This document shows, piece by piece, positions 1,816 through 17,137 of a stretch of 64,000 bases of DNA (positions within the stretch are counted from its first letter, which is position 1; every line of letters begins with the position of its first letter). Made by a program: the position numbers and the translations under genes. Under the pieces are notes generated by a model, which was not told where the DNA came from, made no database searches, and saw only the letters and a program-made list of their open reading frames with translations. The DNA comes from Nitrospirota bacterium (GTDB taxonomy: Bacteria > Nitrospirota > Nitrospiria > JACQBZ01), in the NCBI GenBank assembly GCA_016201865.1, contig JACQCA010000062.1, positions 1 to 64,000 of the forward strand, given 5' to 3'.

Positions 1816-3632
1816 CGTCGTTGAAATAATTTTTCCAGATCGGCCCGGCTGAACCGGACGCGGATCGGCCGGCCGTGGGGACAGGTCGGCGGGACCTCCT
1901 GCCGGTAGAGGTCCTCCAGCAATCGCGTCATCTGTTCCGGCCGAAGCGATTGGTGGGCCTTGATCGCGGCATGGCAGGCCATCGAGGCCATGACATTCTG
2001 AAGGGTCTCTTCCGCGGCCGGGGTCGCGCCCGCGCCGACGTCATCGAGAAGATCTTCCAATAGGATCCGGCCGTCGACCACGCCGAGGACGGCCGGAGCG
2101 GCCCGAATACGAAAACTCCGCTCGCCGAACTCCTCCACCGAAAGGCCGAGGCCCCCCAGCAGCGGCAGAACTTCACGGAGCCGCAAAGCCTCGGCCGTCG
2201 GGAATTCGACCACCTCGGGGATCAACAGCGGTTGGATCGGTATCTCGGAGGCCTTTTGCTGCGATCGAAAGCGCTCATAGAGCAGCCGTTCGTGCGCCGC
2301 GTGCTGATCGATCAGATGCAGTTCGGACTCCACAAGCGCCACGATGTAGGTCTGATCCACCTGGCCCAACGGCTCGATTCGAATCGGCCACAGGATCGTC
2401 GCCGGCCGCGCGGCCGCGGCATCGGATGAAGTCGCCTCGCCTTCCGGCGGATGATAGACGGCCATCGCTTCGCGGGTTCCCTCCGGCCACCGGGGGTCCG
2501 ATGACGGCCGCGCACCCGAAAGAGATTTAACGTCGGAAAACGTCGGACGTCCGGTTTTTATCACATGGGACGCCGCGCCGGAATCAGAGACGTACGACAC
2601 CGCCGGAACCGCAGGCAGCCCCTCTCGCCGCAGGCGCTCCCGTAAGGCCTCCTTGATGAACCGATGCATCGCCTGCGTGTCGCGGAATCGCACCTCGCGT
2701 TTTGCCGGATGGACATTGACGTCCACCGAGGCGGGATCCATCTCGATAAAGAGATACGTCATGGGGTGGCGGCCTTTGGCCAGAAGCGTCCCGTAAGCCT
2801 CATTGACGGCATGCGACAGTGAGGTATTCCGAATCGCGCGCCGGTTTAAAAAAAACTCCTGGTGCTCCCGTGTGGCGCGGAAACGACCCGGTTTCGAAAA
2901 CCACCCCGTCAACGTGATGCCGTTGGATTCGGCCCCCGAGTCGCTTGCCACCGATACGAAATCCGAATCGCCCCCCGCAGCGTCGTCCGAACCGGTGACC
3001 TGGGAGGTCCGCTCCATGACGTTTCGAACAATCGGGAAATCCAAAAGGAGATGATCGTTATGCGTCAGTCGGAAATGGATCCAGGGATGCGGCAGGGCCT
3101 GCTGCTGCACGGTATGGACGATATGGGCCAGTTCCGTGGCGTTTGACTTCAAGAATTTCTTGCGGGCCGGGGTATTATAAAAAAGATCTTCCACTTCGAT
3201 CAGGGTCCCGGCCGGCGCCGCGGCCTCTTTAATAGGAAGCACGGTCCCCCCGTGGATCCGGATCTCGGTCCCGATCGCCCCTCCCTTCTGCGCCGTCACC
3301 ATTCTCACCCGTGCAACGGCTGCGATGCTGGGAAGCGCCTCCCCGCGAAATCCCATCGTCCGGATCGCGGCCAGATCCGCCTCGGTCGCCAGCTTGCTCG
3401 TCGCATGCCGCTCGAAGGCCTTCCGCGCGTCCTCCGGTTCCATCCCCTCGCCGTTATCCGAGACCCGGATCAGCCGACGGCCGCTGTCGGCCGCCTCGAT
3501 AAAGATCCGGGTCGCTCCGGCATCAATTGCGTTCTCGACCAGCTCCTTGACGACCGAGGCCGGACGCTCCACGATCTCGCCGGCGGCGATCTTGTTGCAC
3601 AAGTTTTCAGGGAGGATATGGATTTTGGACAT
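1812..3632 (-). CDS. mutL: DNA mismatch repair protein MutL, endonuclease type
   Basis: The 606-aa protein has an N-terminal GHKL ATPase with IAAGEIVERPASVVKELVEN, DNGEGM and GFRGEALPSI, a transducer domain (NVHPAKREVRF), a variable linker at about 340-410, and a C-terminal dimerisation domain. The C-terminal domain contains DQHAAHERLLYE, which fits the DQHA(X)2E(X)4E endonuclease motif, along with ACHAAIKAHQSL and a final CPHGRP motif. It is therefore expected to nick DNA, as in bacteria without MutH. It sits between cpoB and miaA, an order common in Gram-negative bacteria, and overlaps miaA by four bases. No mutS is in the window. Confidence 0.97.
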   Translation of the reverse strand: MSKIHILPENLCNKIAAGEIVERPASVVKELVENAIDAGATRIFIEAADSGRRLIRVSDNGEGMEPEDARKAFERHATSKLATEADLAAIRTMGFRGEALPSIAAVARVRMVTAQKGGAIGTEIRIHGGTVLPIKEAAAPAGTLIEVEDLFYNTPARKKFLKSNATELAHIVHTVQQQALPHPWIHFRLTHNDHLLLDFPIVRNVMERTSQVTGSDDAAGGDSDFVSVASDSGAESNGITLTGWFSKPGRFRATREHQEFFLNRRAIRNTSLSHAVNEAYGTLLAKGRHPMTYLFIEMDPASVDVNVHPAKREVRFRDTQAMHRFIKEALRERLRREGLPAVPAVSYVSDSGAASHVIKTGRPTFSDVKSLSGARPSSDPRWPEGTREAMAVYHPPEGEATSSDAAAARPATILWPIRIEPLGQVDQTYIVALVESELHLIDQHAAHERLLYERFRSQQKASEIPIQPLLIPEVVEFPTAEALRLREVLPLLGGLGLSVEEFGERSFRIRAAPAVLGVVDGRILLEDLLDDVGAGATPAAEETLQNVMASMACHAAIKAHQSLRPEQMTRLLEDLYRQEVPPTCPHGRPIRVRFSRADLEKLFQRR

Positions 3633-12532: not shown

Positions 12533-13638
12533 AGAAGAGAAGACCACGCTCAACGCCCTGATGACCCGAATGAGCGAACTCCGGGGGCATCTTTGACTTG
12601 CCGGGCCTTCAAAGCCGCCTTCAAGAAATTGAATCCCGGATAGCCGCGCCCGATTTTTGGAACAACGCCCAGGTCGCCCGCAAGGTCTCCCAGGAAAAGA
12701 CCCACATTGAAAAAACGGCAAAGAAATGGGAGCGGCTGGAGCAGCTTCAGGAAGATCTATCGGTGCTGCTCCAGTTGTCCGATGAACAGGCGGACGCTTC
12801 CCTTCACCCCGAAATCGCCCAGTCGCTTAAAACCCTTCAGGACGAGATCCGTCACCTGGAGGTCGAGATGCTCCTGTCCGGCGACAAAGACTTGAACAGC
12901 GCGATCGTGGCGATCCATCCCGGCGCGGGAGGAACCGAATCGCAGGACTGGGCCCAGATGCTGTTCCGAATGTACAACCGGTGGGCCGAACGGAACGGCT
13001 ACAAGGTGGAACTGATCGATTTCCAGCCCGGCGAAGAAGCCGGAATTAAGAGCGCCACCTTCTCGGTGATCGGCGACTATGCCTATGGCCATCTCAAGGC
13101 CGAGGCCGGCGTCCACCGCCTGGTCCGGATTTCTCCGTTCGACGCGAACAAGCGCCGCCACACCTCTTTCTCATCGGTCTTCGTCTATCCCGATATCGAG
13201 GACGACGCCGAGATCGAGCTGGACGAAAAGGAGATTAAGATGGATGCGTTTCGGTCCAGCGGGCCGGGCGGGCAGAACGTCAACAAGGTCTCCTCGGCCG
13301 TACGGCTCACGCATATCCCCACCGGCATCGTGGTGGCCTGCCAAACCGAGCGATCGCAGCACAAGAACCGGTCAATGGCGATGAAACTTCTGCGCGCCAA
13401 GCTGTATGAACTGGAACAGGAAAAGAAGGAAAAGGAGATGAGCTCGATTGTGGGCGAGAAAAAGGAGATCGCCTGGGGAAACCAGATCCGCTCGTACGTC
13501 TTCCAGCCCTATCAGATGGTTAAGGACCACCGGACGAATACCGAGGTCGGAAACGTCTCGGCCGTCATGGACGGCGAGATCGATGAGTTCATCAATGCTT
13601 ATCTGGTTCAGTCGATGAGGACCTCAAAAAGGACCTGA
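12525..13638 (+). CDS. prfB: Peptide chain release factor 2, expressed by programmed +1 frameshift
   Basis: Recognises UGA and UAA stops. Translation starts at ATG 12525 (after AAGGAG) and reads 23 codons to an in-frame TGA at 12594-12596 in CTTTGAC. The remaining 347 codons lie in the +1 frame, starting from GAC at 12595. An internal Shine-Dalgarno-like CGGGGG lies just upstream of the slip site. The C-terminal part contains the stop-codon tripeptide SPF (RISPFDANKRRHTSF) and the peptidyl-hydrolysis motif GPGGQNVNK. Total length is about 370 aa, normal for RF2. The start overlaps the end of lnt. Confidence 0.97.
12588..12597 (+). promoter_or_regulatory. Programmed +1 frameshift site of prfB
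   Basis: The slippery codon CTT is followed by in-frame TGA and C (CTTTGAC), with a purine/G-rich anti-Shine-Dalgarno match (CCGGGGG) a few bases upstream. This is the classic RF2 autoregulatory signal: low RF2 slows termination at UGA and favours the shift that makes more RF2. Confidence 0.95.
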
Positions 13639-13692: not shown

Positions 13693-14850
13693 ATGATGAC
13701 TCGAACCGTTGGTTTGATCGTGATGACTCTTGCTCTGATCGACTCGACCGAACGATCCTGGGCCCTGCCGCAGTTTGGAATCCAGTTCGGATCCGAGCTG
13801 CACGAGGGACATGCGCATGACGAACTCCTGAAGACCCTCGATTGTCGCGCCTGCCACGTCAACCCCGACGGCGGCGGCATGCGCAACGAGCACGGCCGCG
13901 AATTTTCGATCGAACGACTGCCGCTTAACGATAGGACGGAGGATAACGAGAAAGCGATCGAGGCCGCCCGGATCAATCCCTATATCTCATTCGGAACGGA
14001 CCTCCGATTCGCCTATCTTCGGGCCGGACAGGAGTCCGCTTCGAAGTACAAAGATTCATTCTTCCCGATGCAGGCCGATCTTTATATCGCATTTATACCG
14101 ACCGATTATTTCACCCTTTATTACCAAGACGGAGTCCAGGCCTCCGGAAGCCGCGAAACGTTTCTATTGATTCAGCGCCTGCCTTTCAATTCGGACATCA
14201 AAATCGGCCGGTTTATACCGCCTTACGGCCTGAAAGTAGACGATCACACCTCTTTCATCCGAGAGAAGCTCGGCTTCGGCCCATTCGGTTTCGGACAAGT
14301 CAGCGGGGTGGAGGCCGGGTTTGCAAAGTCCGACTGGTTCGGCAATGCCGCCGTCTTCAATAGTCCGGAAGGATCGACCGGAAGTCCAACGTTAGGCCAG
14401 GACCGCCACGCAAAGGGCGCCTCCGCAACCGGCGGAATCAAAACCAACCGCGTCTGGCTGGCCGGTTCGATCTACGATAACCGGCCCGGCACCGAAAAAG
14501 ACGACTACGTCGGCGGCTACGGCGCGCTGCGACTGGGACTGTTTACCGTGATGGGCGAGCGGGACCGTCTCCATGTCGAGGATCGGACGGCCAACGGCGC
14601 GAAGCGAACCGGTTCGGCTTCTTATGCCGAGTTGGATTTCAGACCGATCCGTGGAATCAATACTAAACTGAAATACGACCGGTACGACCCCGACCGCGCC
14701 GTTTCAAAAGATGAGCTGAATCGGTACACGTTCGGCATGGATCTTTATCCCTACCCATTTACCGAGGTGATCTTACAGTACCGGATCAATAAAGAGACCC
14801 CGGAAATTCGCAACGACCAGACAATTGTGATGGCCCATTTCTTTTTTTAG
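13693..14850 (+). CDS. Outer-membrane beta-barrel protein with an N-terminal haem c motif (cytochrome-porin architecture)
   Basis: The 385-aa exported protein has a signal peptide (about 1-25). The next 60 residues are His-rich and carry one haem c attachment motif, CRACH (near residue 51), in the context CRACHVNPDGGGMRNEHG. From about residue 90 to the end, alternating amphipathic strands (LYIAFIPTDYFTLYYQDG, KIGRFIPPYGLKVDDHTSF, TFGMDLYPYPFTEVILQYRI) end in Phe (HFFF), as in outer-membrane barrels. The overall plan of one haem plus a porin resembles Cyc2 iron oxidases, but the haem-site sequence differs from the Cyc2 consensus I know, so function is inferred only. Shine-Dalgarno CAGGAG precedes the ATG. 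It lies beside a GEMM riboswitch and a cytochrome c lipoprotein. Confidence 0.8.
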   Translation: MMTRTVGLIVMTLALIDSTERSWALPQFGIQFGSELHEGHAHDELLKTLDCRACHVNPDGGGMRNEHGREFSIERLPLNDRTEDNEKAIEAARINPYISFGTDLRFAYLRAGQESASKYKDSFFPMQADLYIAFIPTDYFTLYYQDGVQASGSRETFLLIQRLPFNSDIKIGRFIPPYGLKVDDHTSFIREKLGFGPFGFGQVSGVEAGFAKSDWFGNAAVFNSPEGSTGSPTLGQDRHAKGASATGGIKTNRVWLAGSIYDNRPGTEKDDYVGGYGALRLGLFTVMGERDRLHVEDRTANGAKRTGSASYAELDFRPIRGINTKLKYDRYDPDRAVSKDELNRYTFGMDLYPYPFTEVILQYRINKETPEIRNDQTIVMAHFFF

Positions 14851-15078
14851 CCCCCAAGGCGAATCGTCACGCTACCATCATCGTGTACCTGACTTCATAG
14901 TCTGCGACAATAATTGTCAGAGCATCACATAAAACAAAATATCGCTCATCGCTCTCGATCATTTAAAGATAAACCGGATCATTCTGCTTTTCTTATAGAA
15001 TCTCCCTGAATACTCTCCATTCCTTTCCATTAAACTTGCCCTCGCATGCAATTTGCATTAATCCGATTCTGAAATAAT
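14851..15078. other. AT-rich intergenic region upstream of the riboswitch
   Basis: No ORF is supported. The base composition is clearly more AT-rich than its surroundings. Two short perfect palindromes are visible: GACAATAATTGTC near 14907-14919 and ATGCAATTTGCAT at 15046-15058. A weak promoter-like pair, TTGCAT (15053-15058) and TAATCA (15075-15080) with 16 bases between, could drive the riboswitch RNA. Confidence 0.4.
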
Positions 15079-15110
15079 CACCTTATTCCCTCCAGAAAAA
15101 GGTGTTTTTT
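15079..15110 (+). terminator. Possible rho-independent terminator after the haem-barrel gene
   Basis: A CACCTT stem pairs with AAGGTG across a loop of about 14 bases, followed directly by TTTTTT. The stem is short and the loop long, so the strength is uncertain. It would separate the barrel gene from the riboswitch that begins a few bases later. Confidence 0.45.
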
Positions 15111-15210
15111 CATTTGCTCAGAGCGAATCCGGAGAAATCCGGAGACGCAGAGCAACGGGGCTAAGAAAGCGGTTCATGCATGAACCGCTTTGATGCCAGC
15201 CGAGCCGCCA
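15111..15210 (+). ncRNA. GEMM-I type cyclic dinucleotide riboswitch (c-di-GMP or 3',3'-cGAMP)
   Basis: The aptamer core is readable. CAGAGCGAA corresponds to CAGGGCAAA of the Vc2 c-di-GMP-I aptamer. A perfect TCCGGA-GAAA-TCCGGA stem with the GAAA tetraloop (15128-15143) is followed by GACGCAGAGC (15144-15153). The second stem, GGGGCTAAG...GCCAGCC, is extended by a hairpin with AAGCGGTTCATG arms. The base I align with G20 of Vc2 is A, the change associated with GEMM-Ib/cGAMP sensing, although alignment by eye could be off by one. The 3' strand (GAGCCGCC) is shared with the following terminator. No plus-strand gene follows. Confidence 0.8.
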
Positions 15211-15242
15211 AAGGGTTATCTCTTTGGCGGCTTTCTGTTTTT
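15202..15242 (+). terminator. Intrinsic terminator acting as riboswitch expression platform
   Basis: AGCCGCCAAAG pairs perfectly with CTTTGGCGGCT (11 bp) around an eight-base loop, followed by TTCTGTTTTT. Its left arm overlaps the 3' end of the aptamer, so ligand binding and termination are mutually dependent. The minus-strand cytochrome gene stops at 15241, inside the T tract. In that direction there is no T run, so it does not terminate that gene. Confidence 0.8.
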
Positions 15243-15723
15243 AGTTATCAGGCGCCCCATCCAAAATCCATTGTCGGACCACATCGATCTCGGTTTGGGT
15301 CAGGCAGCAGCCGGATCGCGGCATTTGATCGGTTCCGGACGAGATATCCCTCCCTTCGAGTTTCCTAATGAGGTAACTGTTATTGGGATCGACCGGTATG
15401 ACCCGTACACCACATGGCTGATTCGAAGTCGGTCCGCAGCCGTTCTGAACGCTGTCAATATTAACCAGATTAGCGTATGCGAGTGGTTGCGTCGATAGAT
15501 CAAGGCCGCGTGGACCGGTCCCGACATACCCTGCTCCGCCCAGAACATGGCAGCTCGCACATCTTGGAGTAAAAATATTTTGCTGAATGCTTGAAAGCGT
15601 CGCCGGAAACGGCAAGGGGTTTCCTGAACCGCCGCCCGAACCTCCGCCGCCGCAGCCCGATAACAGGGCCGCCATGACAAAAACCTCCATAGCCATCCGA
15701 CAGTGCCGACTTAATCGTTTCAT
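15241..15723 (-). CDS. Mono-haem cytochrome c-type lipoprotein
   Basis: A 160-aa protein with a lipobox LLSGC near residue 24, a Gly-rich linker, and one haem motif CASCH in the context QNIFTPRCASCHVLGG. The rest (GLDLSTQPLAYANLVNI, VDPNNSYLIRKLEG, DQMPRSGCCLTQTEIDVVRQWILDGA) matches the single-haem domain common in lipoproteins of environmental bacteria, with the Met in QMP a likely distal ligand. AGAAGG precedes the ATG. It follows the chorismate-lyase-like gene by 11 bases. Its 3' end meets the GEMM riboswitch terminator, so riboswitch read-through RNA would be antisense to it. Confidence 0.85.
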   Translation of the reverse strand: MKRLSRHCRMAMEVFVMAALLSGCGGGGSGGGSGNPLPFPATLSSIQQNIFTPRCASCHVLGGAGYVGTGPRGLDLSTQPLAYANLVNIDSVQNGCGPTSNQPCGVRVIPVDPNNSYLIRKLEGRDISSGTDQMPRSGCCLTQTEIDVVRQWILDGAPDN

Positions 15724-15734
15724 GATGCCTTCTT

Positions 15735-16349
15735 CTAACCGGCTCCTTGTCGGCCGGTAAAATGGCGCTCAAAAAACTTTTCGGCGATCACAATCACCGG
15801 CCTGCCTTTCACGCTGATCCGATATCGGCGGAAATAAATCGGGTCGCCTTCTTTGATTTCAAAATAGGCGGACAACTCCTTCCCGGCCTTTTCCGTTCCA
15901 AAATCTAAAATCTCCCGATAGGTTTCGAGCCGCCGGTCGCGCAGGAGCTCGCCCATTCCCAGTCGCCCTTGACGCAGGTCGTTCTGAATGCCGACATCCA
16001 ACCGATCGATTCGGATATGGGATTCGGCAAAGGTATAGACGCAGCCGCTTTGGACCCCGCGCAAAAGGATTCGGCGCAGCAAGACGGCATCCCCCGATTT
16101 GAGCTCCAATTCGGGAACGGCCGATGCCGATCGGGTCTCTTCCTGAAACAGCTTCTCCACGCGGATGGGCTCCCATAAATAGGCCTCGAGAAACTTGGTC
16201 ACGGTCCCGTCCGTCACCAGGAGGGCTCTCAAAAAGGGATTCATCTCCTGAAAACAGATGCCGTTCAACGGAATATTGCCGGCCGTCACCTTGGGTAAAA
16301 ACCCACGGAGCGGATCGTAGACATACTCCGTCATCTGATCATTTTTCAC
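15735..16349 (-). CDS. Chorismate pyruvate-lyase-like protein (DUF98 family)
   Basis: About 204 aa from the GTG start preceded by AAGGA at a seven-base spacing; a longer open frame exists upstream but lacks a Shine-Dalgarno. Diagnostic segments are MNPFLRALLVTDGTVTKFLEAYL, VLLRRILLRG, YTFAESHIRIDRL and LGMGELLRDRRLETYREIL, which match the DUF98/chorismate lyase pattern. Such enzymes release pyruvate from chorismate to give 4-hydroxybenzoate, used for quinone-type products; activity here is inferred. It sits between a PilZ gene and a cytochrome lipoprotein on the same strand. Confidence 0.78.
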   Translation of the reverse strand: MKNDQMTEYVYDPLRGFLPKVTAGNIPLNGICFQEMNPFLRALLVTDGTVTKFLEAYLWEPIRVEKLFQEETRSASAVPELELKSGDAVLLRRILLRGVQSGCVYTFAESHIRIDRLDVGIQNDLRQGRLGMGELLRDRRLETYREILDFGTEKAGKELSAYFEIKEGDPIYFRRYRISVKGRPVIVIAEKFFERHFTGRQGAG

Positions 16350-16445
16350 TTGCACTTCCTTTTTATGGTTGAGGTCCGGCATTGGGGAACGTATCCGGAC
16401 CGCCGAGCCTTGACTGTGCCGCGATGACCTCTTCACGAACCAGGC

Positions 16446-16769
16446 TTACTTTGAGGACGATAATAGAAAAGCCGTCCCGATCCGATAAGCATCCCTCCGG
16501 CCGTTCGGCCGGACCCACTGCACTTCGGCCAAGGCCGAGGGCATCGGCGGCGGATCCGAAGGAGGAAACTCAATTCGGATGATCGTGGATGGCTTCAAGC
16601 GCCGCGCCGTAGTCAAACATACCCCTCCCGCACTAATATCACAGAGTCGCCCCTCGAACCATCGAGAGGCTTTGGGGCGGACAAGCGCCTCGACTGAAAC
16701 GCCCGTTTCATATCGAACGGTCCGCCGTACCGGGTACCGTGGATTCGACCGCCTTTCAACCGTCGCCAT
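16446..16769 (-). CDS. PilZ domain protein (c-di-GMP binding)
   Basis: A 107-aa single-domain protein. The start MATVERRSNPRYPV is supported by AGGGAGG five bases upstream; an upstream extension of the frame is ignored. RSNPR gives the RxxxR motif and DISAGG gives the D/NxSxxG motif of c-di-GMP-binding PilZ domains, followed by strands (IIRIEFPPSD, VQWVRPNG). It is a probable second-messenger receptor acting on an unknown partner. It heads the minus-strand group that runs towards the GEMM riboswitch at 15.1 kb. Confidence 0.88.
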   Translation of the reverse strand: MATVERRSNPRYPVRRTVRYETGVSVEALVRPKASRWFEGRLCDISAGGVCLTTARRLKPSTIIRIEFPPSDPPPMPSALAEVQWVRPNGRRDAYRIGTAFLLSSSK

Positions 16770-16864
16770 GCCGCCCTCCCTTTTTGAGTGTGCGTCGTTC
16801 TTATACACCCTGGATGCCGATCGAGTCAATCCCAAATCAGGGATTATCTTAAGAGCACCATGCA

Positions 16865-17137
16865 TCAGACGGACGTTTCAAACCGCACCGCCATTGTGGC
16901 CAGGCTCTTGGGAGTTTTGAATTTTGAGTTTTGAGTCGTGAGTTCTGATTGGCGCCATTTTAAATAGCAGACGACGGCGAGAAGATAGAACAACGCGGCC
17001 AACGAAGCAAAGCGCTGGACGATATAGGTCACGGCCTGGGTCTGGATCGGATGCACGATAAATAAAAAGGCCGTGGCCAGAGCAATCCAAGGAGCAGAAA
17101 ACAGTTTTGAGTTCAGTGGATGGATCCGGAATAGCAA
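16865..17137 (-). pseudogene. Remnant of a TMTC-like membrane glycosyltransferase gene
   Basis: The translated fragment contains WIALATAFLFIVHPIQTQAVTY, then QRFASLAALFYLLAVVCYLKW. This is the membrane core of the same family as the intact gene at 50056-52059 (LLTASLFAVHPIHAEAVAW). Only about 45 residues of recognisable protein remain. The frame then runs into low-complexity sequence and stops, and no N-terminal part or TPR region is visible on either side. It is therefore a decayed or truncated copy rather than a small gene. The lysS promoter lies just beyond its 5' end. Confidence 0.7.

Follow-up and report, generated by a model that had tools for sequence, protein, structure and literature searches.

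A GEMM-Ib-type riboswitch without a sense gene in a Nitrospirota genome, probably stranded by rearrangement and starting to decay

What does a riboswitch control when the gene that should follow it is missing? In a draft genome of a Nitrospirota bacterium (GenBank assembly GCA_016201865.1) a GEMM-I riboswitch with an overlapping terminator points straight into the 3' end of a gene on the other strand. We analysed this locus within a window of 64,000 nucleotides (contig JACQCA010000062.1, positions 1 to 64,000 of the forward strand), starting from a first-pass annotation that had left two readings side by side: either the regulated gene had been lost or inverted, or the switch controls an antisense RNA.

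The aptamer, its subfamily and the missing gene

The covariance model of c-di-GMP-I riboswitches (RF01051) aligns at full length, model positions 1-87, to 15112-15212 of the plus strand. cmscan scores this match at 57.4 bits, where the gathering score is 35, with an E value of 1.4e-8 over the window, and the Infernal search thereby bears out the original claim of a GEMM riboswitch. The riboswitch region folds far more stably than its shuffled counterparts (minimum free energy -70.8, with shuffles averaging -43.1; z -7.9), and the GAAA loop and the GACGCAGAGC core are both found in the aptamer. Stem P2 (TCCGGA-GAAA-TCCGGA, 15128-15143) emerges alike from the sequence, cmscan and the fold, and the distal stem of P3 (15166-15191) is a perfect 11 bp inverted repeat. 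The whole genome holds nine RF01051 hits.

The subclass had been guessed as GEMM-Ib, and the sequence supports this. The hallmark of GEMM-Ib is an A at the position of Vc2 G20, a base that contributes to selectivity between cyclic dinucleotides (PMC9262584); here that position is A15122, and it is A in 59 of 59 sites of the subfamily described below, as it is in the Geobacter GEMM-Ib switches, especially that of G. metallireducens pilM (PMC9262584), which belong to the same aptamer class. cGAMP is the preferred ligand of the Geobacter class (PMC6456294), and judged by sequence the present switch would be of this 3',3'-cGAMP type. The source genome (G000) also encodes a GAF-GGDEF protein (L150:919-2052, contig C40) with Ser at the Hypr signature position (GHLMGS), and in the PDB it comes closest to the Hypr domain of Geobacter GacA (6d9m, E 1.3e-49); because of that residue and that match, this GacA-like protein would imply cGAMP signalling in the organism.

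Relatives and a GTDB scan yielded 59 sites of a tight subfamily marked by CUUUGCUCAGAGCAAAC...GACGCAGAGCAACGGGGCUAA...GAGCCGCCAAAGG and a terminator, drawn from Nitrospirota including Candidatus Manganitrophus, Geobacterales, other deltaproteobacterial MAGs and Acidobacteria MAGs. A sense gene lies at a short distance 3' of nearly all of them. As in Geobacter, relatives of this switch precede PilM-like genes (downstream of L103 in an Acidobacteria MAG, and of L129 and L138 in two Nitrospirota MAGs) and multihaem cytochrome genes. Two GEMM-Ib paralogs in the source genome (L004 and L005, contig C94) sit in a run of multihaem c-cytochrome genes, each ahead of such a gene and each with a TTGACA promoter, P1 and terminator. 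Among the sites with enough DNA, a plausible sense gene is missing only here and at L104 (positions 1900-2600, minus strand, Acidobacteria MAG). This second orphan has an intact P1 (UUACUUUG:CAAAGUAA) and a terminator, and the end of an opposed gene is found about 280 nt past that terminator.

Following the plus strand from the switch as far as lysS (17246), we found no plausible sense ORF, in agreement with the first-pass annotation, and no further terminator; small sense ORFs 3' of the switch were considered and set aside as antisense shadows without a ribosome site. What lies directly downstream is, as had been described, the 3' end of a convergent gene for a mono-haem cytochrome c lipoprotein (15241-15723, minus strand), so that an opposed gene stands where an antisense riboswitch would have it. 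This gene has a lipobox and one CXXCH, and its stop codon sits on the terminator U-tract. Truncation at a rearrangement junction was ruled out since the natural C-terminus aligns with homologs, and the gene is complete. It is accompanied on the minus strand by a chorismate-lyase-like gene (Rv2949c / UTRA fold, 15735-16436; PF01947, 62.4 bits) and a PilZ-domain gene (16446-16769; PF07238), the latter with a likely start at 16769 and GGGAGG upstream. The PilZ gene does belong to the opposing group, as had been remarked, though that placement does not in itself speak for control. A TTGACT-18-TATAAG sequence (16800-16829, minus strand) reads as the probable sigma70 promoter of the group. At higher coordinates (16865-17137, minus strand) lies a fragment of a membrane-protein gene (TPR glycosyltransferase-like) present in multiple copies, of which the intact ones in the genome run to 616-916 aa. 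This fragment has 14 matches in the genome, itself counted.

Helix P1, the terminator and the promoter region

In the cGAMP-responsive pilM switch the aptamer and the terminator are mutually exclusive, an ON design acting on transcription (PMC9262584), and because that riboswitch works in this way we take the present subfamily to share its logic. The ancestral state would then be a GEMM-Ib, 3',3'-cGAMP-type transcriptional ON switch of the kind expected in working relatives, where P1 and the terminator would exclude one another and ligand binding would prevent termination ahead of the sense gene. P1 in these relatives reads CCUUUG:CAAAGG, and its 3' arm is common to P1 and the terminator. In the present copy the intrinsic terminator (15202-15241, plus strand) likewise takes the 3' arm of P1 (CAAAGG, 15209-15214) into its own 5' arm. 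Its stem (15202-15233) comprises 14 pairs followed by TCTGTTTTTA, so that the overlap with the aptamer 3' end reported at first sight holds, and the length of 11 bp given for it does not.

The 5' arm of P1 (15110-15116) brings A15112 opposite G15213, an A-G mismatch at position -1, where 55 of 57 subfamily sites have C-G; an A in place of the C is seen in this copy alone. With position -1 so nearly constant, and with position -2 covarying (CG 41, TA 8 and AT 5 among the 57), P1 is under selection elsewhere in the subfamily; in this tally the L125 row seems to be mis-assigned. No P1 among the 57 is weaker than this one, calculated at -0.2 kcal/mol where the median is -6.4, and it stands next to a terminator that at -24.9 is the tenth strongest. 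A P1 so mismatched and so weak would not be expected to compete with its terminator, and the switch is predicted to be locked off.

The core departs from the subfamily as well. A23 is present in 58 of 59 sites and in 33 of 34 readable RF01051 hits, and the sole exception is this copy, which has G at 15125; A23 is not needed for a match to the RF01051 model and bears on function instead. Otherwise the core is present, as is the GAAA loop, so that the aptamer first described as intact is so in these parts and deviates, uniquely, at P1 position -1 and at A23, and both changes may well affect function.

A similar picture is found upstream. All eight sister switches of the genome have TTGACA-16-TANNNT 23-45 nt 5' of the aptamer, and a search upstream of 15112-15212 for a TTGACA-type, sigma70 promoter found none. 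A sigma54-like element, TCGCATGCAATTTGCAT (15042-15058, plus strand), matches TGGCAY-N5-TTGCW at 10 of 11 positions, without G-25. The two strands of the window, 128 kb in all, contain only three matches as good, and the distance of this element to the aptamer is about that of the intact sigma54 elements of relatives, which lie 44-52 nt upstream in L044, L051, L060 and L108. Between this element and the aptamer stands a terminator-like hairpin, CACCTT...AAGGTG followed by T6 (15079-15110, plus strand; -7.6 kcal/mol on its own); of 58 switches, only 3 have an upstream hairpin of this sort with -5 kcal/mol or less.

Sigma54-type promoters are found at many switches of the subfamily (L044, L051, L060, L063, L108, L113, L118, L121 and others). 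At 12 sites the promoter has GG...GC and agrees with the consensus at 9 or more of 11 positions. This recurrence would tie sigma54 to cGAMP switches in the subfamily. The promoter sites of L042 and L043 were found by a scan wider than 110 nt.

Antisense control should be considered in the light of these features. Ligand binding would then permit read-through, and the resulting transcript, running against the haem-lipoprotein, chorismate-lyase-like and PilZ genes, would reduce the expression of these genes through polymerase collision or duplex formation. The idea has precedent: antisense action of c-di-GMP-I switches has already been proposed, experiments have established two antisense riboswitches, and of the riboswitch families that of c-di-GMP is reported to show the greatest enrichment in antisense positions, with 152 cases (PMC9943018). 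The Listeria pocR cobalamin switch and the Clostridium ubiG-mccB-mccA SAM switch likewise have the riboswitch, with its terminator, set against the 3' end of a gene on the other strand (PMC9943018), and at our locus the terminator abuts the convergent stop codon, no further plus-strand terminator was found up to lysS, and the genome encodes the GacA-like cyclase. However, the Listeria and Clostridium switches are transcribed and ligand-controlled, whereas here the P1 antiterminator looks broken, A23 is changed, a sigma70 promoter is missing, and the sigma54-like element is damaged and followed by a hairpin that would be a further obstacle. The logic would also be reversed, as Geobacter cytochrome expression goes up with cGAMP (PMC6456294). 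Because the P1 and the promoter that it needs both look impaired, we regard a riboswitch-controlled antisense RNA as unlikely. More doubtful still is a sigma54-driven cGAMP switch gating antisense transcription through the haem-lipoprotein/PilZ operon, which, if true, would place a c-di-GMP-linked gene group under silencing by cGAMP signalling.

The terminated leader might also be the product in its own right, a stand-alone small RNA acting for example as a ligand-dependent decoy or in trans. Such an RNA would be short and, given the perfect stems and strong terminator, stable, and a second orphan exists in L104, but with no intact promoter, no conserved extra element seen and no target evidence this seems very improbable.

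Gene order and the origin of the locus

Upstream of the switch, prfB (12598-13638) precedes a porin-like gene with one CXXCH (13693-14850, plus strand), which has clear orthologs in five relatives, none of the same genus. The riboswitch is absent beside the porin ortholog in all five, and the synteny comparison suggested at the outset, which was to show what sense gene follows the switch, did not recover the lost gene in relatives that have no switch at the site. In the closest of them, G002, prfB and the porin are also neighbours, with two genes in between, no riboswitch was found with the porin block, and the chorismate-lyase-like gene runs in the direction of the porin, whereas in the source genome it is reversed. 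In G027 a related haem lipoprotein lies 3' of the porin in sense orientation. Since relatives have no switch by their porin, the G002 block differs in orientation, a gene fragment is present and the PilZ group has its own promoter, a rearrangement appears to have shaped this locus. Of the two readings first offered, loss or inversion of the gene is the better supported, by synteny, by the fragment and by the departures in P1, A23 and the promoter.

A more specific version would have the switch once sense to the PilZ group, or to another gene, with one end of an inversion at the terminator. The orientations in G002 and G027 suit this idea, and the breakpoint would fall on the U-tract. It is at odds with the PilZ group's own sigma70-like promoter and with the absence of a riboswitch in G002, and the uninverted order was found in no genome examined; taken by itself we consider it improbable. 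As to origin, an inverted operon would be a special case of a stranded switch, inversion being one possible route to it. Misassembly would put the switch beside the wrong genes, and the genome is a draft of 97 contigs. Yet the site lies 15 kb into a contig of 76 kb, the deviations in the sequence do not depend on the assembly, and prfB and the porin keep company in G002 too, so that we give this explanation scarcely any weight.

A reading of the locus and what it means

The best reading is a lineage-specific, orphaned and decaying switch left behind by rearrangement. We put at roughly two in three the probability that this is a stranded GEMM-Ib switch which no longer answers to ligand and whose remaining role, if any, is that of a fixed terminator. 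Rearrangement would have deprived the switch of its own gene and pointed it at the end of a convergent operon, and the P1 mismatch, the A23 change and a damaged sigma54 site behind a hairpin, together with the strong terminator, would have ended its response to ligand. With P1, A23 and the promoter all altered and the terminator still strong, the most that would be left is a constant stop to transcription, separating the porin gene from the haem-lipoprotein/PilZ operon. Some features count against decay: the P2, P3 and terminator stems are perfect, so that decay, if real, would be recent, or the hairpins would still be selected, and the sigma54-like element still holds 10 of 11 consensus positions. 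Stems and element together are what chiefly speaks against simple decay. L104, moreover, demonstrates that orphaning is compatible with a sound P1.

What is real at this locus is an RNA sensor of a type that as a rule turns on cytochrome and surface genes, here without a gene to control; it differs from the Geobacter GEMM-Ib switches in that its sense gene is missing, its P1 is mismatched, A23 is replaced by G and its promoter is damaged. A by-product of wider interest is a GEMM-Ib regulon in Nitrospirota genomes together with a GacA-like Hypr cyclase, its switches carrying sigma70- or sigma54-type promoters and standing before multihaem cytochrome, PilM-like and lipoprotein genes. The locus itself would be a case of a riboswitch stranded by rearrangement and beginning to decay, and it illustrates that a riboswitch facing the 3' end of a gene is insufficient ground for inferring antisense control. 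This caution bears on computational lists of antisense-acting riboswitches, where c-di-GMP switches are the most enriched.
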